From assembly GCA_029776225.1 (NCBI GenBank), contig JAKOTR010000008.1, positions 1 through 64,000 on the forward strand: 64,000 bases of DNA, in the 5' to 3' direction. How positions within the stretch are numbered: position 1 is the stretch's first letter; each line of letters begins with the position of its first letter. This document shows, one piece after another, positions 52,750 to 59,825 of the stretch. Made by a program: the position numbers and the translations under genes. The notes under the pieces are model-generated. The model saw only the letters and a program-made list of their open reading frames with translations. It made no database searches and was not told the origin of the DNA. The DNA comes from Acidobacteriota bacterium. GTDB taxonomy: Bacteria > Acidobacteriota > Terriglobia > Bryobacterales > Bryobacteraceae.

Positions 52750-53655
52750 ATGATCCAGACACGGCGTCATTTCCTATCCGCTTCGGCAGGGCTTGCCGCC
52801 GGCTCCCTTGCTTTCGCCGCGGCCAAAGACGAAATTTCCCTGGCCGCGTGGTCAATCGTGAATAGCTTCCGAGCCGGGAAATGGAAGAATCTCGACCTGC
52901 CCCGCCTGTGCCGCGACGAGTTTCGGGTAACCGGACTGGAGTTCGTCAACCAGTTCTTCGAAAATCCCACGCTCAACTATTTGCAGCAATTGAAGCAAAA
53001 CGGCCGGGACTACGGCATCACGTTCGTCAGGATCATGGTCGACAACGAGGGGAACATGGCCGCCGTGGACAAGGCCGAGCGCATGCAGGCTGCCGTGGCG
53101 CACCGGAAGTGGGTGGACATCGCGCACTATCTTGGCTGCCGCGACATCCGCTGCAATATGCGCGGCGAGCGGCCGGACTGGAAGCAGGACAAGGACCTGA
53201 TCAACCGCGCCGCCGAGAGCTTCCAGGACCTGTTGGAGTACAGCAAAGGATCGAGCCTGGACATCGTGATCGAAAACCACGGAGGCGCTTCCTCGGATCC
53301 GGACATTCTCGTTGGCCTCATGAAGGCCGTGAATAACCCGCGTTTCGGTACTCTGCCGGATTTCGGCAACACGAACCCAGGCGACGACCCGTACGAGGTG
53401 CTCCGGAAATTGATGCCCTATGCCAAGGGCGTGTCCGTAAAGGCAAGCTGGGCCGAAGACGGTACGCACCCGCGCTATGACCTCGAGAAGATGATCAAGA
53501 TCTGCCAGGAGTTCGGTTACAAAGGCTTCTGGGGTATCGAATCGAGTTTCGGCCGCCGGAGCCGCCCGGCCACGCCGGATGAGATCTGGCAGAACGAAGT
53601 CAAGGGCGTCATGCTGACCAGGGCGGTTATCGAGCGCACGGTGATGAAGGGCTAG
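52750..53655 (+). CDS. Tat-exported sugar phosphate isomerase/epimerase-like protein
   Basis: Xylose-isomerase-like TIM barrel of 301 residues. From the ATG at 52750 a Tat signal is present (TRRHFLSASAGLAAGSLA). Metal-ligand candidates lie in VIENHGG (Glu), LPDFGNTNPGD (Asp), SVKASW (Lys region) and GIESSFG (Glu). Most sugar isomerases of this family are cytoplasmic; this exported group is common in Planctomycetes and Acidobacteriota and may act on free sugars or glycosides. Its end overlaps the opposing alpha-galactosidase by 4 bp. Confidence 0.82.
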   Translation: MIQTRRHFLSASAGLAAGSLAFAAAKDEISLAAWSIVNSFRAGKWKNLDLPRLCRDEFRVTGLEFVNQFFENPTLNYLQQLKQNGRDYGITFVRIMVDNEGNMAAVDKAERMQAAVAHRKWVDIAHYLGCRDIRCNMRGERPDWKQDKDLINRAAESFQDLLEYSKGSSLDIVIENHGGASSDPDILVGLMKAVNNPRFGTLPDFGNTNPGDDPYEVLRKLMPYAKGVSVKASWAEDGTHPRYDLEKMIKICQEFGYKGFWGIESSFGRRSRPATPDEIWQNEVKGVMLTRAVIERTVMKG

Positions 53656-55742
53656 CGCCCCGCGGCCGTCCCCGGCCGCTCGATCTTTACCCAGACGAAC
53701 TGCTTGGTTTCGGGAATCCTGGCGCGGAGCTTGCCGGATGCGATCGAAACGGAACCAGCTCCTCCCAATACGGTCACTGAGTACTTCGGCGCCCCGAACA
53801 TAGGTACGGAAAATTCCCACTCCGGCGAGGGGTTCAGTTCGCGGAAGAGCAGGGCGTATCCGCTTTGACCGTCTTTCGCCACCGAGACGAAGCCGGTCCA
53901 CGCCACGCCGTCCGGCGCCTCTCCAATCGGAATGATCGAACCGGAAAAGATGCCGGCGCGCTCCTGTTTCCAACGCGCGATGAGGGGCGGCAGTTCCTCG
54001 AAGTAAGACGCCGGCAGATTGGAAATCTCAAACCAGCCGAGCGGGTTTGAGAACATGACCGTGGCGAACAAGTAAGAGGGCGAGTATTGAGCCGGCCCGA
54101 GCGGATCATCGGGATAGAGCTGCGTGTTGCGGGAGTTATTCAGAAACTCCATCCGCAGCCGGGCCGGGTCCACGTACTGCGCCAGTTTCCACAGGTTCCG
54201 CAAAGTATGGTGCGGCCAGTAGCGGTGCCAGTCCGTGTAGCGGTTTTCGACGAACAGCGGTCCGACGTTGATCATTCCGAAATAGCCGGGACGCACCTGG
54301 GCCGTCACGTCAAGATCGAAGCTCACGGCCCCGCGCGATTCCTCAAGCACGCGGTCGAAGAACCGCCGCAGGTTGCGTTCGGCGGTCTTGGAGTTCGCCC
54401 TCACGCTGTCGATCTTGACGTAATCCACCCCGAACGTCCGGTGGAGTTCCAGGATCTTGGCGGCGTCTTTCTCCCAGTTCGCGAAATCGTTGCTCGAGTC
54501 GGGAGCGAACCACAGACCGAACCGCATTTTGCTGGCGGCGGCAAGCTTAATGATGGGCGCAAGCCCGTTCGGGAAACGCTCGGGATTCACGTTCCAGAAT
54601 TCGGGATCCGCATCCCAATAGCCTGCCCAGACGCCTCCGGCCCTGACGGAGTTTGAACTGGCGCCCTTCTGCCAACCGTCGTCGATCTGTATGACGTCGA
54701 CCCCGAGCTTCGCGCCAGCGTGTACCTCCTTGGTGAGGAACTGCTCGTTGATGCGGCCGTCGCGCGAGCGGTCGCCCCAGGTGTTGCTCAGAAACATGGC
54801 GTCGCGCTTGGGATCGTAGACGCGCAACTGCCGCTGGTAGGCGTGCAGCGCCTCGATCCGGCCAACGCGGCCACGCGAATAACTCAGCACGACGTGGCGG
54901 TAACCCTCGCCGGGCCCGTCCGTTCCCTGCCCCAACAGGCCGATGCGCCAGTTCTGCGGCTCGAAGGTGAGATCAACCTCGTTCTTTACCGGCCGCGCGT
55001 GCGGCAGCGGCGCTTCCTTCAGAAAGATCAGTCCGTTCCCCGTGAGCGTGTTCTCAACGATGAAGAGGTTGCCCGGAAGGCGGAGAGGCTCGGCGGTGTG
55101 CAGCAGCCATTCGTTCTCGAACACGAGTTCGTTGTGATTATCGGTCTGGTCCGCGAGGCGCACCTGCGTGAGCCTGAGGTGCTGAGGCGCAAGGTCAAGC
55201 ACCTCCATTGCGTCGGCAATGATCTTCTGCTGCCGCGCTTGCTGCCCGCGGTCCACTTCGATTCCCGACGCCGTGCCGCCCTGTTCCCCGGCGCTCGTCG
55301 AAGCCGGACCGGCCCCCGTCCCAACGGCGGTCAACTGCACCGAGATGCCGCGCGCGTCCGGAAACACCTGGAAGCGGTAGGTCAGCCTCACGGAGCCCGT
55401 GGTGGCCAGTTCAACCACGAGAGATTCGGCCTCGACCGGGCTGAACCTGCCGGTTTTCTGCGTGAAGGTCACTTCGCGCTTCTCCTCCGGGAGCGCCGCG
55501 GCGGGATAGGGCGCGGGCTGCGAAGAGGGGCGCGCAAGCCACTCGACGTTGTTGTCGAGGTCGCGGAAGGAAACGGCATAGAGCAGGCCGTTGACGACTC
55601 TCCATTTCCGCTCGACGTGGGAATTCGCGATGGTCAGTTCGGCGCCGTCAAATTGCGCGCGGCAGGATGGCAGGCCCGCGGCAAATGAGCAGGCGGCGGA
55701 CAGGAGAAAAACGCAGAGTACTCGCATCAGATTGGCCATCAT
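53652..55742 (-). CDS. Secreted alpha-galactosidase-like glycoside hydrolase (clan D, GH36/GH27)
   Basis: A 696-residue exported enzyme, ATG 55742 or 55727 (MRVLCVFLLSAACSFAAG signal). A beta domain (about 25-300) precedes the TIM barrel: DVIQIDDGWQKG, NPERFPNGLAPIIKLAAASK, RFGLWFAPDSS, then VDYVKIDSVRANS with the nucleophile Asp. A C-terminal beta domain follows. This is the clan-D layout of alpha-galactosidases and related enzymes. It complements the galactose locus at 36-47 kb, though not adjacent. The pairing with the convergent isomerase gene may be accidental. Confidence 0.8.
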   Translation of the reverse strand: MMANLMRVLCVFLLSAACSFAAGLPSCRAQFDGAELTIANSHVERKWRVVNGLLYAVSFRDLDNNVEWLARPSSQPAPYPAAALPEEKREVTFTQKTGRFSPVEAESLVVELATTGSVRLTYRFQVFPDARGISVQLTAVGTGAGPASTSAGEQGGTASGIEVDRGQQARQQKIIADAMEVLDLAPQHLRLTQVRLADQTDNHNELVFENEWLLHTAEPLRLPGNLFIVENTLTGNGLIFLKEAPLPHARPVKNEVDLTFEPQNWRIGLLGQGTDGPGEGYRHVVLSYSRGRVGRIEALHAYQRQLRVYDPKRDAMFLSNTWGDRSRDGRINEQFLTKEVHAGAKLGVDVIQIDDGWQKGASSNSVRAGGVWAGYWDADPEFWNVNPERFPNGLAPIIKLAAASKMRFGLWFAPDSSNDFANWEKDAAKILELHRTFGVDYVKIDSVRANSKTAERNLRRFFDRVLEESRGAVSFDLDVTAQVRPGYFGMINVGPLFVENRYTDWHRYWPHHTLRNLWKLAQYVDPARLRMEFLNNSRNTQLYPDDPLGPAQYSPSYLFATVMFSNPLGWFEISNLPASYFEELPPLIARWKQERAGIFSGSIIPIGEAPDGVAWTGFVSVAKDGQSGYALLFRELNPSPEWEFSVPMFGAPKYSVTVLGGAGSVSIASGKLRARIPETKQFVWVKIERPGTAAGR

Positions 55743-55803: not shown

Positions 55804-58140
55804 CTACACCTGCGGCGAGATGTAGCGCACAAAGCTCAGTTCGGAAAGCGCCTTGAGTTGCGCTACGGGCAGGCGGCCGACAATCATCTTGCCCGACTTC
55901 GGCTCGAGCAGAATTTCAAACCCGAGCTGCTTCAGCTTCGCGATCGCCGCCGGTGAAGTATCGGTCAGCCAGACCTGGATCTCGGCCTTGCCGTTGCGAA
56001 CGAACGGGGCGTTGGCCTCCGGCCGCTGGATCACCGCCGCGATGGCGGGATGCACCTTCGGGGGCGATTGAACCACGGGGGCTCCGACCCAGGCGCTCTC
56101 CGCCGCGCCGCCGAGCATAAGCCGCGCGGGAGCGCCGAGCGCCGCTACCTGTTTCGCCGCGCCAAATGTGTTTGCAGGAACCGCATCGCGCTCCCTGCCG
56201 AACACGCCCTCGTAGCTCACGCCTTCGGGCATCTCGACCGGCACCTCGACGCGGCGCGGCTGCCCGCCGTCCGTGATGGTCATTTCCTCAACGGCCACGA
56301 AGGAAGTGAATTGCGTCATCAGCCGGTAGTCGAGGCCAAGCTGTGTAATGGCGTCGCGGATGTCGGTTCTGATCGTGCCGGACTGCAGGCCGAAGTAGTC
56401 CTGCCCCATCAAGTCACTGATGCGGGCGCGCGCCCAGAGCGGCGCCAGGACGTCGTGCCGCGGTTCGGAATCCGGCAGCGTGACGCGCACGGCGCGCGAG
56501 AACTCCCGGCCGGCCATGCGCCCGCGCAACCGCACGGTTCCGCTCCCCGGCGCGCTGTATCGCCCGTGGATGATCAGGGGCTTCGCGCTGAACAGGTCCG
56601 GGATGCGCCTCGGGTAGACATCGCTGACGGCGAGATTGCCCCAGTCGATTTCGATGTCCGTCAGCAGCGGATTGCGCACCCGCTCATGGAACCGGCGTGC
56701 GGCGGCCGAGCCGTCATCGTTCAATCCAACATACTCCACTTCCCCGCGCCCGTACTTGGCCATTTCATCCAGCAGAAAGCGGTTCACCGAGCTGCCGATG
56801 CCGAAGGCGAAGATGCGCGCGTTGGGGTGTTTCTGCACTTCCGCGATGATCTCCATATCGTTGCCGACGTAGCCGTCGGTCATGAAGCAGACGACGCGGA
56901 TGTGGTCCTGCGCGTCCGAAGGTTCGAGCGCGGCGCGGATCGCCTTCATCATCTCCGTGCCGCCGCTGCCCTCAGCGCGGGCGAGGAACCGCTGTGCCGC
57001 CGCAAGGTTCTCCCGCGTCGCAGGGACGGGTTCAGGGAACAGGATGCGCGTATCGCCCGAAAACGTGATGAGGTTGAAGGTGTCCCGCGGGTTGAGTCCG
57101 TCGAGCGCGAGCTTCATGGTCTCTTTCGCTTTCTCGATGGGAAAACCCGACATGGAACCCGACGTGTCGATGACGAAAACCAGTTCCTTGGGGGTAATGT
57201 CTTCGGCGGAGATGCGTTCGGGTGGCTGGAGGATCAGCGTGAAATAGCCGCCGCGCGCCGTGCGGTGCGCCAGAACGGCGTCACGGATCGCGCTTCCGGC
57301 GACGTCGTACTTCAGCACAAAATCCTTGTTGGGCAGCACGGCCTTGTTCTTCAGGCGCACAACGGCCGCCTCCGGGCTGCGCCTTTCCACGTCGATTTCA
57401 TGCGAAGGCGATTCGATCGCATCAATCACCACGCCGGCATCCAGAGCGACTTCGAGCGAGATGTCGTGGCCGGCGCGCGTGCCCGGCCGCGCCACCGGCG
57501 GGGTGATGCGCGAAGCGTCGGGGACGCGGTCGGTGTCCGGCGACCATCCCCCGCCTTGTCTGCCCGCCGGCCGGCCGGGAATGTACCGCGGGCCGACCAC
57601 CATGGGAAAGGAGAACTCGTACCTGCCGTCTTCGTACTTCAGGGTCTCGACATAGCTGATCTCGATCCGGACCTGTTCGCCGGGCATGATGTTGGCGACG
57701 GACTGCGTGAAGATGTTGGGCCGTTGCTGGTCGAGCAATCCGGCGAGGCGGCCGGAGGCGCGGGCCGCTTCATAGATGGCGCGGGCTTCCTCGCGGCGCT
57801 TGATCTTGCCGCGGACCGTGCGGCCGCCCACGAGCATCGTCATATCGTCCACGGCCGAGTTCGGCGGAAGGGGGAAGGTGTAAACCGCTTCGATTTTCTC
57901 CGGAAACGGATTCGAAAATTCCTGGGTGACGGTGACGCGAGCGAGAAACCCGGTGATCTCGGCTTTGACATCGGTGTGCTTCAGCGGACAAGCGGCCTGG
58001 ATCTGGCCCTCGGAATCGAGGCTGAACAGCGAACCCTGTGTGACCACCCCCGAGGCGGCGGAACCGGCCCCGGGGCGAAGCCCGAGAACCACTGCGCCGG
58101 CAACCAGGGCGCATGCTGCGAGGCGCGGAAGAGAAATCAT
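55804..58140 (-). CDS. VIT and von Willebrand factor A domain protein
   Basis: A 778-residue exported protein. ATG 58140 follows GGAGGAG. A signal peptide is followed by a VIT domain (about 45-165, VTVTQEFSNPFPEKIEAVYTF) and a VWA domain (about 300-470) with an intact MIDAS (FVIDTSGSMSG). A beta-rich C-terminal part follows, ending in a short 45-residue module of alternating helix and strand (IAKLKQLGFEILLEPKSGKM). It resembles proteins called marine proteobacterial sortase targets, but no LPxTG-like signal or sortase is seen. It is last in an operon with an ECF sigma factor and an anti-sigma-like protein. Confidence 0.87.
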   Translation of the reverse strand: MISLPRLAACALVAGAVVLGLRPGAGSAASGVVTQGSLFSLDSEGQIQAACPLKHTDVKAEITGFLARVTVTQEFSNPFPEKIEAVYTFPLPPNSAVDDMTMLVGGRTVRGKIKRREEARAIYEAARASGRLAGLLDQQRPNIFTQSVANIMPGEQVRIEISYVETLKYEDGRYEFSFPMVVGPRYIPGRPAGRQGGGWSPDTDRVPDASRITPPVARPGTRAGHDISLEVALDAGVVIDAIESPSHEIDVERRSPEAAVVRLKNKAVLPNKDFVLKYDVAGSAIRDAVLAHRTARGGYFTLILQPPERISAEDITPKELVFVIDTSGSMSGFPIEKAKETMKLALDGLNPRDTFNLITFSGDTRILFPEPVPATRENLAAAQRFLARAEGSGGTEMMKAIRAALEPSDAQDHIRVVCFMTDGYVGNDMEIIAEVQKHPNARIFAFGIGSSVNRFLLDEMAKYGRGEVEYVGLNDDGSAAARRFHERVRNPLLTDIEIDWGNLAVSDVYPRRIPDLFSAKPLIIHGRYSAPGSGTVRLRGRMAGREFSRAVRVTLPDSEPRHDVLAPLWARARISDLMGQDYFGLQSGTIRTDIRDAITQLGLDYRLMTQFTSFVAVEEMTITDGGQPRRVEVPVEMPEGVSYEGVFGRERDAVPANTFGAAKQVAALGAPARLMLGGAAESAWVGAPVVQSPPKVHPAIAAVIQRPEANAPFVRNGKAEIQVWLTDTSPAAIAKLKQLGFEILLEPKSGKMIVGRLPVAQLKALSELSFVRYISPQV

Positions 58141-58194
58141 CGCACTCCTCCAATCCATGAGGGAAATGCTGTCTCGCGGGCGATCCTTTCAGAA

Positions 58195-59289
58195 TTAATC
58201 CCGCGGGCGGGTGAGATCGATCAGGACGACGTCGCTGGCGGGCTGTGTTTCCGCTTGCGGAACTTCACGAGCGGCGGCGGTGGCGGCTGTCCGCGCGGAG
58301 GCAACGCCCGGCGCGAGCATGACGGTGAACTTGCGCACAGCCGGCGGGGGATCCACAGTGTAGCTGACGCCGGCGGCGGCGCTCATGCTGAACAGCAGGT
58401 TGCGCTCCTCGTCGAAAACGGCTAAATTCCCCGGCCGGTTCGCGGTGAGCACCAGCCGGACAGGCACTCCGGGCTCCACTGGTCTCCGGGGATCCGCCGG
58501 AACAAAGTTTCCTTCCGGGGTTCTTACCAAAACCTCATAGCGGATCGGAGAAAAAGCAACCGTCTGTGCGGCCGGCGGGGCGCCGGCGCTGAACAATTGG
58601 ACAGGCGCTCCGGCGGCGCCGCTCGATCCGGCCCGGGCGGCCCCACTCGATTCGCTTTTGGACACGTCCTCCGCTACGTCCGTTGCCGTCATTTCGGCAA
58701 CCTGAGCCGGTTGAGCGGGCGCTGCGGGAGGCGGAGCGGCCGGGTGCGGCTCGGCCGTTCTCCTGGACCGCGCAACCGCCGGAGGGCGGTCCGGAACCGC
58801 CGCGGGCAACTGTGCCGGCGGAGCCTCGCTCTTAAGCTCAGGACTCTTAACTTCGGAGCTTTTCACTTCCGGTCCTTGAGCTTCGCGCGAGCCCGGTACA
58901 ACGACCTGGCGCTCGGGCTCTACCGGCGGCGCTTCCGCTTTTCTATATTGCGCTACCTGAATCTCATCGCCGGGCTGCGTTGTTCGAACGGCGATAATCG
59001 CGACCGCAGCGGCAGTGGCCAGCGCTCCGGCGAGCGCCCAACCGCGAGGACGCCGCATCCATCCGGCGGCGCGCCCCAGAATACCGGGCCGGGGCGCGCG
59101 CAGTGCCTGCTCGATTTGCCGGCGGCAGCGCGGATCTTCGAGCACTTCGCGGAGCGCCTCCTCGCCCACGAGCGCGTCGAATAAAGCCTGGTCCGTGAGC
59201 GCGGCTTCGTACAGCGCCCGGCGCTCCGCCTCCGTCAGAGTCCCGGTGGCGTATCCGCCGAGCAGCTTTTCGAGATCCTCGCGCTTCAT
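58195..59289 (-). CDS. Anti-sigma-factor-like membrane protein with DUF4384-like C-terminus
   Basis: A 364-residue single-pass membrane protein. The N-terminal 75 residues are helical (MKREDLEKLLGGYATGTLTE), like short anti-sigma domains but without a zinc motif. A membrane helix follows (about 93-113, WALAGALATAAAVAIIAV). Then comes a Pro/Ala/Lys-rich spacer (with EVKSSEVKSPELKSE) and a beta domain (YEVLVRTPEGNFVPADPRRP, VRLVLTANRPGNLAVFDEER) resembling DUF4384. The ATG overlaps the sigma-factor stop (ATGA), so it is most likely the partner of that sigma factor. Confidence 0.75.
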   Translation of the reverse strand: MKREDLEKLLGGYATGTLTEAERRALYEAALTDQALFDALVGEEALREVLEDPRCRRQIEQALRAPRPGILGRAAGWMRRPRGWALAGALATAAAVAIIAVRTTQPGDEIQVAQYRKAEAPPVEPERQVVVPGSREAQGPEVKSSEVKSPELKSEAPPAQLPAAVPDRPPAVARSRRTAEPHPAAPPPAAPAQPAQVAEMTATDVAEDVSKSESSGAARAGSSGAAGAPVQLFSAGAPPAAQTVAFSPIRYEVLVRTPEGNFVPADPRRPVEPGVPVRLVLTANRPGNLAVFDEERNLLFSMSAAAGVSYTVDPPPAVRKFTVMLAPGVASARTAATAAAREVPQAETQPASDVVLIDLTRPRD

Positions 59290-59825
59290 TTCCGCTTCTC
59301 CCACCCCCCGCCCATCCACTCCATGAGCTGCTTGCGGCAGCGCGAATCCCAGGTATAAATCGTGTTGATCGAATGCACGCCCATCAGGGCCTGAATTTCG
59401 GGAAAGCTTTTCCCTTCCAGCTTGAGGCGGAACAGTTCCTTGCAGCGCTCGCCCATGCGGGCGATCCCGGCAACCAGGCGGTCGGCGATTTCCTTGCGCG
59501 CCAGGCTCGCCTCGGGGCTCGGATCGAGGGCGGCCAGCGGGATTTCATCGCTGGATACCTGGTTGTACTCTCCCCGGCGGTGCGCTTTGCGGTGCAGGCT
59601 CATCATCTTATACCTCAAGATGCGGAGACAGAGCGGCAACAAGTCCTGAAGCTGCTCGATGTGGCTGTACTTCTCGTGGAGGAGGAGCAGCACCTCCTGC
59701 GCAAGATCCTCCGCGGCGTCCCTCGATATACGAGATGCCGCGAAAGCGATCATCCTTTCACGCAGGCAGGAAAGGATTTCTTCCTTTTCGGAAACGGCGC
59801 GTGCTGCCGGCGGCCGGGAATCCAT
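59286..59825 (-). CDS. ECF-type RNA polymerase sigma factor
   Basis: A 179-residue sigma factor with regions 2 and 4 only. Region 2 reads FAASRISRDAAEDLAQEVLLLL and LPLCLRILRYKMMSLHRKAHRR; region 4 reads RMGERCKELFRLKLEGKSFP and IQALMGVHSINTIYTWDSRC. ATG 59825 is chosen. It heads an operon with the anti-sigma-like protein and the VIT/VWA gene. The intergenic region upstream contains inverted repeats that may be its own promoter or operator. Confidence 0.9.
   Translation of the reverse strand: MDSRPPAARAVSEKEEILSCLRERMIAFAASRISRDAAEDLAQEVLLLLHEKYSHIEQLQDLLPLCLRILRYKMMSLHRKAHRRGEYNQVSSDEIPLAALDPSPEASLARKEIADRLVAGIARMGERCKELFRLKLEGKSFPEIQALMGVHSINTIYTWDSRCRKQLMEWMGGGWEKRK

Follow-up and report, generated by a model that had tools for sequence, protein, structure and literature searches.

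A trio of minus-strand genes and its conservation

We analysed by computation a group of three genes in a draft genome of an Acidobacteriota bacterium (order Bryobacterales, family Bryobacteraceae; GCA_029776225.1). The window, that is, the whole stretch of DNA under analysis, spans the first 64,000 nucleotides of contig JAKOTR010000008.1. The trio encodes a putative extracytoplasmic function (ECF) sigma factor, an anti-sigma-like membrane protein and an exported protein with VIT and VWA domains (Table 1). What is new here is a bipartite promoter motif common to the VIT/VWA gene and other genes for exported proteins, and co-distributed with the sigma factor. An earlier reading, made from the sequence only, had taken the three genes for an operon that could act as a surface-sensing system, and its gene calls hold: all three genes lie on the minus strand, the overlap of the first two falls at 59286-59289, and the VIT/VWA open reading frame (ORF; 55804-58158) follows the pair after a 36-base gap. 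Scanning of the locus for sigma-70 promoters and terminators returned none above shuffled sequences.

Table 1. Positions in the window of the three genes, their domains and the candidate promoter
Feature	Positions	Strand	Description
ECF-type sigma factor	59286..59825	minus	179 aa, regions 2 and 4 only
Anti-sigma-like single-pass membrane protein	58195..59289	minus	364 aa, start over sigma stop (ATGA)
Helical anti-sigma domain, predicted cytoplasmic, no zinc motif	59098..59283	minus	residues 3-64; predicted local distance difference test (pLDDT) ~82-97
Membrane helix	58984..59049	minus	residues 81-102; AlphaFold and sequence hydrophobicity
Outer beta-sandwich domain, DUF4384-like	58309..58551	minus	residues 247-327; core pLDDT ~95; orthologue DUF4384 matches
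Bipartite promoter TGAAAGG-N15-GCATTTCC (candidate)	58162..58191	minus	sole exact match in genome; conserved at relatives' VIT/VWA
Exported VIT/VWA protein, predicted inter-alpha-inhibitor heavy-chain (ITIH) fold	55804..58140	minus	778 aa; ORF from 58158
VIT domain	57652..57984	minus	residues 59-169 of 784-aa ORF; PF08487 5.7e-39
VWA domain	56737..57186	minus	residues 325-474; metal ion-dependent adhesion site (MIDAS) D331, S333, S335, T401, D428
C-terminal beta-alpha-beta-beta-alpha-beta domain	55807..56001	minus	residues 720-784; pLDDT ~87-96; no Pfam match

Judged by its sequence, the sigma factor is a divergent ECF member with regions 2 and 4, no region 3 and scores below curated cut-offs. 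Its Sigma70_r2 and r4_2 matches both fall under the Pfam cut-offs, and the score for the NCBIfam model TIGR02937, 42.2 bits, stays short of the cut-off (42.9). Searching with a profile built from seven orthologues retrieved four solved ECF sigma sequences, SigH-type among them (E 8e-5 to 4e-4). Upstream of the sigma genes, dyad enrichment gave no pair standing out as a promoter, and reading by eye revealed no common bipartite site.

The membrane protein of the window has no Pfam or NCBIfam match of its own. In its AlphaFold model the N-terminus is helical (3-64); a membrane-like helix (81-102) follows, and a long Pro/Ala linker, modelled at low confidence, leads to a beta domain (~247-327). 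Two traits of class I anti-sigma factors, co-encoding with the sigma and membrane anchoring, were found: helix 81-102 accounts for the latter, and in 101/101 loci there is an overlap of 0-20 bases, exactly 4 in 57 of them, between the sigma stop and the start codon of the anti-sigma-like ORF (101 of 103 places were examined; one ORF is truncated to 20 codons where its contig ends). The zinc motif Hx3Cx2C, reported as missing by the earlier reading, is indeed absent from this protein and from the first 90 residues of all 85 orthologues; according to PMC7406223, ~44% of class I anti-sigma domains have no zinc motif. Sub-threshold zf-HC2 matches (E<=0.01) occur in six of the 85 orthologues, at the N-terminus in both that were localised, and two NCBIfam anti-sigma models match three and four of them. 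The label "DUF4384-like" for the outer domain derives from relatives, with six of 85 orthologues matching at E<=0.01 and L003 scoring 38.4 bits (PF14326, gathering score 27), and not from the window protein itself, which yields no match at E<=1 and whose outer domain does not reach the gathering score. Structure searches returned common beta-sandwich matches only (Z up to 8), and barely covered the helical N-terminus. In genus g10 (L218, L219, L220), two or three anti-sigma-like ORFs follow the sigma gene in series; the strict promoter site described below occurs in none of the three sigma-positive genomes of this genus.

To score conservation, 200 genomes of the order were surveyed with E cut-offs of 1e-20 for the sigma, 1e-3 for the anti-sigma-like protein and 1e-60 for VIT/VWA, which were matched in 102, 99 and 62 genomes, respectively. 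Both sigma and VIT/VWA are matched in 57 genomes. The trio proposed earlier is thereby conserved in part of the family: in 30 of these 57 genomes VIT/VWA is found downstream of the sigma gene, on the same strand and no more than 4 kb away (hereafter, linked), whereas in the other 27, draft assemblies with some split contigs, adjacency was not found. The 51 VIT/VWA relatives retrieved first are mostly labelled Acidobacteria, the nearest named one being L036 (78%), labelled Bryobacterales; sigma and anti-sigma genes precede VIT/VWA in six of these 51 loci. Two records labelled Nitrospirae (L003 and L039) carry the sigma/anti-sigma/VIT set otherwise seen in Acidobacteria records, and are possibly mislabelled bins. 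A larger fixed operon was rejected, for the ORFs downstream of VIT/VWA differ in strand and length across loci.

A bipartite motif upstream of VIT/VWA and other exported-protein genes

A search for a shared promoter motif, proposed along with the sequence-only reading, proved productive. Comparison of the DNA before VIT/VWA genes revealed a block common to linked and unlinked upstreams, TGAAAGG-N14-GGCATttCC, with near-constant spacing, which also stands before other genes for exported proteins. In the window the site reads TGAAAGG-N15-GCATTTCC, with an A before GCAT, and takes up 30 bases of the 36-base gap that separates VIT/VWA from the anti-sigma gene. Searched as TGAAAGG-N12..18-GCATTTCC, it is matched exactly only here in the 5.18-Mb draft genome. 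The site begins 3 bases past the anti-sigma stop and ends just 3 bases ahead of the ATG at 58158; for this reason the ATG at 58140, before which a GGAGG stands, is the likelier VIT/VWA start. A near-copy on the minus strand at 59731-59760, inside the sigma coding sequence and with one or two mismatches depending on the pattern, was taken as background.

We then scored upstream regions with a fixed-spacing matrix of 18 sites located before DUF4139-class genes, which have no relation to VIT/VWA; its threshold was set so that 99.9% of 3,000 shuffled sequences fall below it. The matrix matched 26 of the 30 linked and 17 of the 21 unlinked VIT/VWA upstreams (these 21 being the ones examined among 37 unlinked places), but 0/99 sigma upstreams and 0/101 sigma 3' ends, in a test that is not fully independent, its 18 sites having been found with the pattern first noticed at VIT/VWA. 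The independent part is that the pattern repeatedly leads to the same unrelated genes. Misses include wrongly called starts: L182 has a site, and in G008 a site with one mismatch lies immediately ahead of the VIT/VWA match; the counts were left as computed. Among the 51 loci found first, ten are matched, including five of the six trio loci, and several of the ten correspond to the searched genomes.

The gap between the anti-sigma and VIT/VWA genes is only 36-114 bases in 22 of the 30 linked loci, as would suit a single operon transcribed from the sigma promoter with VIT/VWA as its third gene, the motif being incidental. This arrangement is highly improbable, given that the motif, its internal spacing unchanged, also precedes unlinked VIT/VWA and other genes. 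Read-through from the sigma promoter may nevertheless add to VIT/VWA expression.

A scan of 237 family genomes with the strict pattern TGAAAGG-N14-GGCATNNCC located 75 sites, spread over 64 genomes, whereas the reversed control yielded 8. Among the 180 family genomes typed for the sigma, the strict pattern was found in 48/102 sigma-positive versus 4/78 sigma-negative ones (p=1.6e-10). The difference persists when counted by genus (29/41 versus 3/26, p=2.9e-6), which removes relatedness between genomes only in part. With one mismatch to TGAAAGG-N15-GCATTTCC allowed, real and control matches amounted to 89/24 in genomes with sigma and VIT/VWA, 56/16 with sigma only, 50/31 with neither gene and 2/1 with VIT/VWA only. 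Two sigma-negative genomes outside the family, G013 and G023 (L024 and L022), contain VIT/VWA and no site.

The strict sites, from which alone the following classes were counted, fall into 72 distinct contexts, and 57 of these lead ten protein classes, named after inspection. VIT/VWA and the DUF4139 class account for 20 contexts each, the latter joined by BLAST and confirmed by Pfam above the cut-off in all three proteins scanned. Five contexts lead small exported DUF4440-like proteins (DUF4440 sub-threshold in two, four joined by BLAST), and three, in as many genera (L311, L328, L348), lead exported alpha-alpha-toroid proteins of ~365-410 aa, squalene-cyclase-like in Pfam for the two scanned. 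There are two contexts each for alpha-2-macroglobulin-like proteins with MG2 and bait-region domains, for serpins (E 4e-106 and 2e-107, with the hinge EEGTEAAAAT in both) and for ARPP-1, and one each for an M48 peptidase, a small exported protein and an aldose epimerase. All 57 proteins of the named classes have a hydrophobic N-terminus, versus one in the other 15 contexts; these 15, five of them without an ORF, look like chance matches, of which the control predicts 8. The 40 sites that were fetched had been chosen by eye. No ARPP-1 match was detected in the source genome, in which no search was aimed at serpins, alpha-2-macroglobulins or DUF4139. At L028:4033-5577, in a Korobacter-labelled record, the gene immediately preceding VIT/VWA is 52% identical to the DUF4139 protein of L307; this locus has no motif by the matrix and is outside the 72 contexts.

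Several results weigh against a circuit in which this sigma factor reads the motif. Besides the partial dependence of the matrix test and the naming of classes after inspection, 54 sigma-positive genomes have no strict site, the source genome among them (AGCAT, not GGCAT), while four sigma-negative genomes have one, which precedes VIT/VWA in G186 and DUF4139 in G109; in these four the sigma gene may be lost, missed or unassembled. The trio locus L039 has no matrix match, and both serpins come from a single genus. When two mismatches were allowed in the source genome, 16 real and 7 control matches were obtained, of which only the VIT/VWA site stands out, and a looser core gave 7 of each; the wider regulon is seen in relatives, not in the source genome. 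Moreover, many ECF sigma factors autoregulate, and this one seemingly does not. The motif could accordingly belong to another ECF sigma of similar distribution, only this sigma having been typed, or to a different regulator, with VIT/VWA merely placed behind the pair in part of the family; the motif-free sigma gene and the 54 sigma-positive genomes without a strict site fit such a scenario. We regard it as unlikely in view of the co-distribution of motif and sigma at both the genome and the genus level, the position of VIT/VWA immediately downstream in the trio, and the 41 of 51 first-found VIT/VWA loci, mostly from other lineages, that have no matrix match.

The VIT/VWA protein and its neighbourhoods

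The VWA domain of the exported protein matches VWA_3 at 1.1e-23. Its best NCBIfam match is TIGR03788 (residues 62-659, 536 bits against a cut-off of 551.65), which ends at model position 598 of 629; the protein thus has no sortase tail, in agreement with the earlier reading. Since Acidobacteria are diderm, a sortase anchor is not expected. The AlphaFold model (mean pLDDT 79.7) matches human inter-alpha-inhibitor heavy chain 1 (ITIH1) with E 1.9e-35. The best structural row, 6fpz, aligns 511 residues at 3.9 A (Z 27.0, 22% identity), and the VIT domain, the MIDAS-bearing VWA domain and the domain that follows are in the ITIH1 arrangement. The MIDAS columns are invariant in an alignment of 38 rows. 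Thirty-six of these rows reach the C-terminal domain, while contig ends truncate the remaining two; by eye, two cyanobacterial rows appear unrelated across this domain. Searches of Pfam and PDB sequences gave it no clear relative, and the idea that it may be a protease-prodomain-like inhibitor found no convincing PDB sequence match. ITIH heavy chains carry a C-terminal DPHFII motif for chondroitin coupling. This motif is absent, with no DPH anywhere in the VIT/VWA sequence, and we therefore speak of an ITIH-like fold rather than of an ITIH.

Related proteins and neighbouring genes were also recorded. A 325-aa protein encoded after a one-mismatch site (L297, G016:C68) combines VIT with the C-terminal domain, with no VWA between. 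The source genome encodes a second, distant VIT/VWA-like protein (G000:C18:60990-62624; L055, L058) of 27% identity, beside which the looser-core scan found no motif match. In the window, a melibiase-like glycosidase gene (53652-55739, minus strand; PF02065 1.2e-9) lies 65 bases downstream of VIT/VWA, and has no counterpart at the other fetched sigma and VIT/VWA loci, bar a weak match at L037. At L006, L017, L018, L020, L021, L042 and L053, mostly Blastocatellia-type records, VIT/VWA is preceded by a TonB_C gene whose product often has an N-terminal zinc-ribbon-like stretch, which makes up a separate conserved neighbourhood.

The sequence-only reading had named a VIT/VWA gene with its own promoter and different neighbours elsewhere as the finding that would speak against it. 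Taken literally, this is what we found, with TonB_C neighbours in several Blastocatellia records. Within the family, however, the "own promoter" is the shared motif, and the regulatory link is therefore strengthened. The trio does look like a functional set.

A candidate sigma switch and comparable systems

We consider it probable that the locus encodes an ECF sigma switch under membrane control, and that the adjacent VIT/VWA gene is its output. The single-pass protein would inhibit the sigma factor by keeping it at the membrane, and an envelope signal, read via the long outer linker and the beta domain, would set it free. RNA polymerase carrying this sigma would then start at TGAAAGG-N15-GCATttCC before VIT/VWA, and the exported inter-alpha-inhibitor-heavy-chain-like protein would be the response. 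In relatives, the same promoter would drive the DUF4139 class and DUF4440-like, serpin, alpha-2-macroglobulin-like, toroid, ARPP-1 and other genes. As the sigma gene is devoid of the motif, it is probably controlled by sequestration and release rather than by an autoregulatory promoter of its own.

In the scheme proposed earlier, VIT/VWA or its ligand would instead touch the outer domain of the anti-sigma protein and thereby trigger or damp the sigma, as a sensing partner or in feedback. The close linkage (30 of the 57 genomes with both) and the predicted location of both domains outside the cytoplasm are compatible with this idea, and a target feeding back on its own anti-sigma would look alike. 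Yet the sigma/anti-sigma pair is kept in 45 of the 102 sigma-positive genomes with no VIT/VWA match at E<=1e-60 (one, G016, has the shorter VIT plus C-terminal-domain gene) and is not found beside VIT/VWA in 27 others, the promoter stands at VIT/VWA and not at the sigma gene, and unrelated exported proteins have the same promoter. The claim is thus unsupported, and we find a sensing or feedback partner quite improbable. Because the VIT/VWA gene itself carries the promoter, its product most probably represents an output of the sigma factor rather than a ligand that switches it.

The company of serpin, alpha-2-macroglobulin and ITIH fold suggests a possible protease-defence role, on which the DUF4139, DUF4440-like and ARPP-1 proteins are neutral; the outputs may act in such defence or in that of the envelope. 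One could even conceive of a bacterial "acute-phase" response, in which attack by foreign proteases, felt via the anti-sigma linker or outer domain, would free a dedicated sigma that induces secreted proteins of plasma-inhibitor fold (ITIH-like, serpin, alpha-2-macroglobulin, toroid), their genes being swapped between species within one promoter-defined regulon. We hold this extended version to be doubtful.

To our knowledge, no role has been firmly assigned to VIT/VWA and DUF4139 proteins in bacteria. The promoter they have in common with serpins and alpha-2-macroglobulin-like proteins in relatives provides a handle on what their joint role may be. The analysis recasts three unexplained genes as a regulatory circuit that can be put to the test, for which a promoter is named, a candidate regulon is listed and the outputs belong to a structural class. 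It also raises a possible bacterial parallel to the animal plasma inhibitor families.

ECF/anti-sigma circuits are well known. With pairs of the RskA, RseA and RsiW type (class I anti-sigma factors), the present system shares a two-domain sigma and a co-encoded single-pass protein with predicted N-terminal helical and extracytoplasmic domains. It differs from them in a sigma that scores below curated cut-offs and whose gene is devoid of the motif, an anti-sigma-like protein without a family match and the unusual outputs. In the literature searched, which covered few subscription journals and included PMC3174227 and PMC7406223, we found no comparable circuit and no link between an ECF sigma and VIT/VWA. 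TIGR03788, which describes a marine proteobacterial sortase target, is the closest NCBIfam model, but the VIT/VWA protein stays below its cut-off, has no sortase tail and ends in another C-terminal domain. Bacterial serpins and alpha-2-macroglobulins stand behind the same promoter in relatives, and would be under the control of this sigma factor there. Finally, whereas human ITIH1 (PDB 6fpy and 6fpz) carries the DPHFII motif and has no counterpart of the extra C-terminal beta-alpha domain, the bacterial protein shares with it the VIT domain, the VWA domain with a complete MIDAS and the domain that follows.

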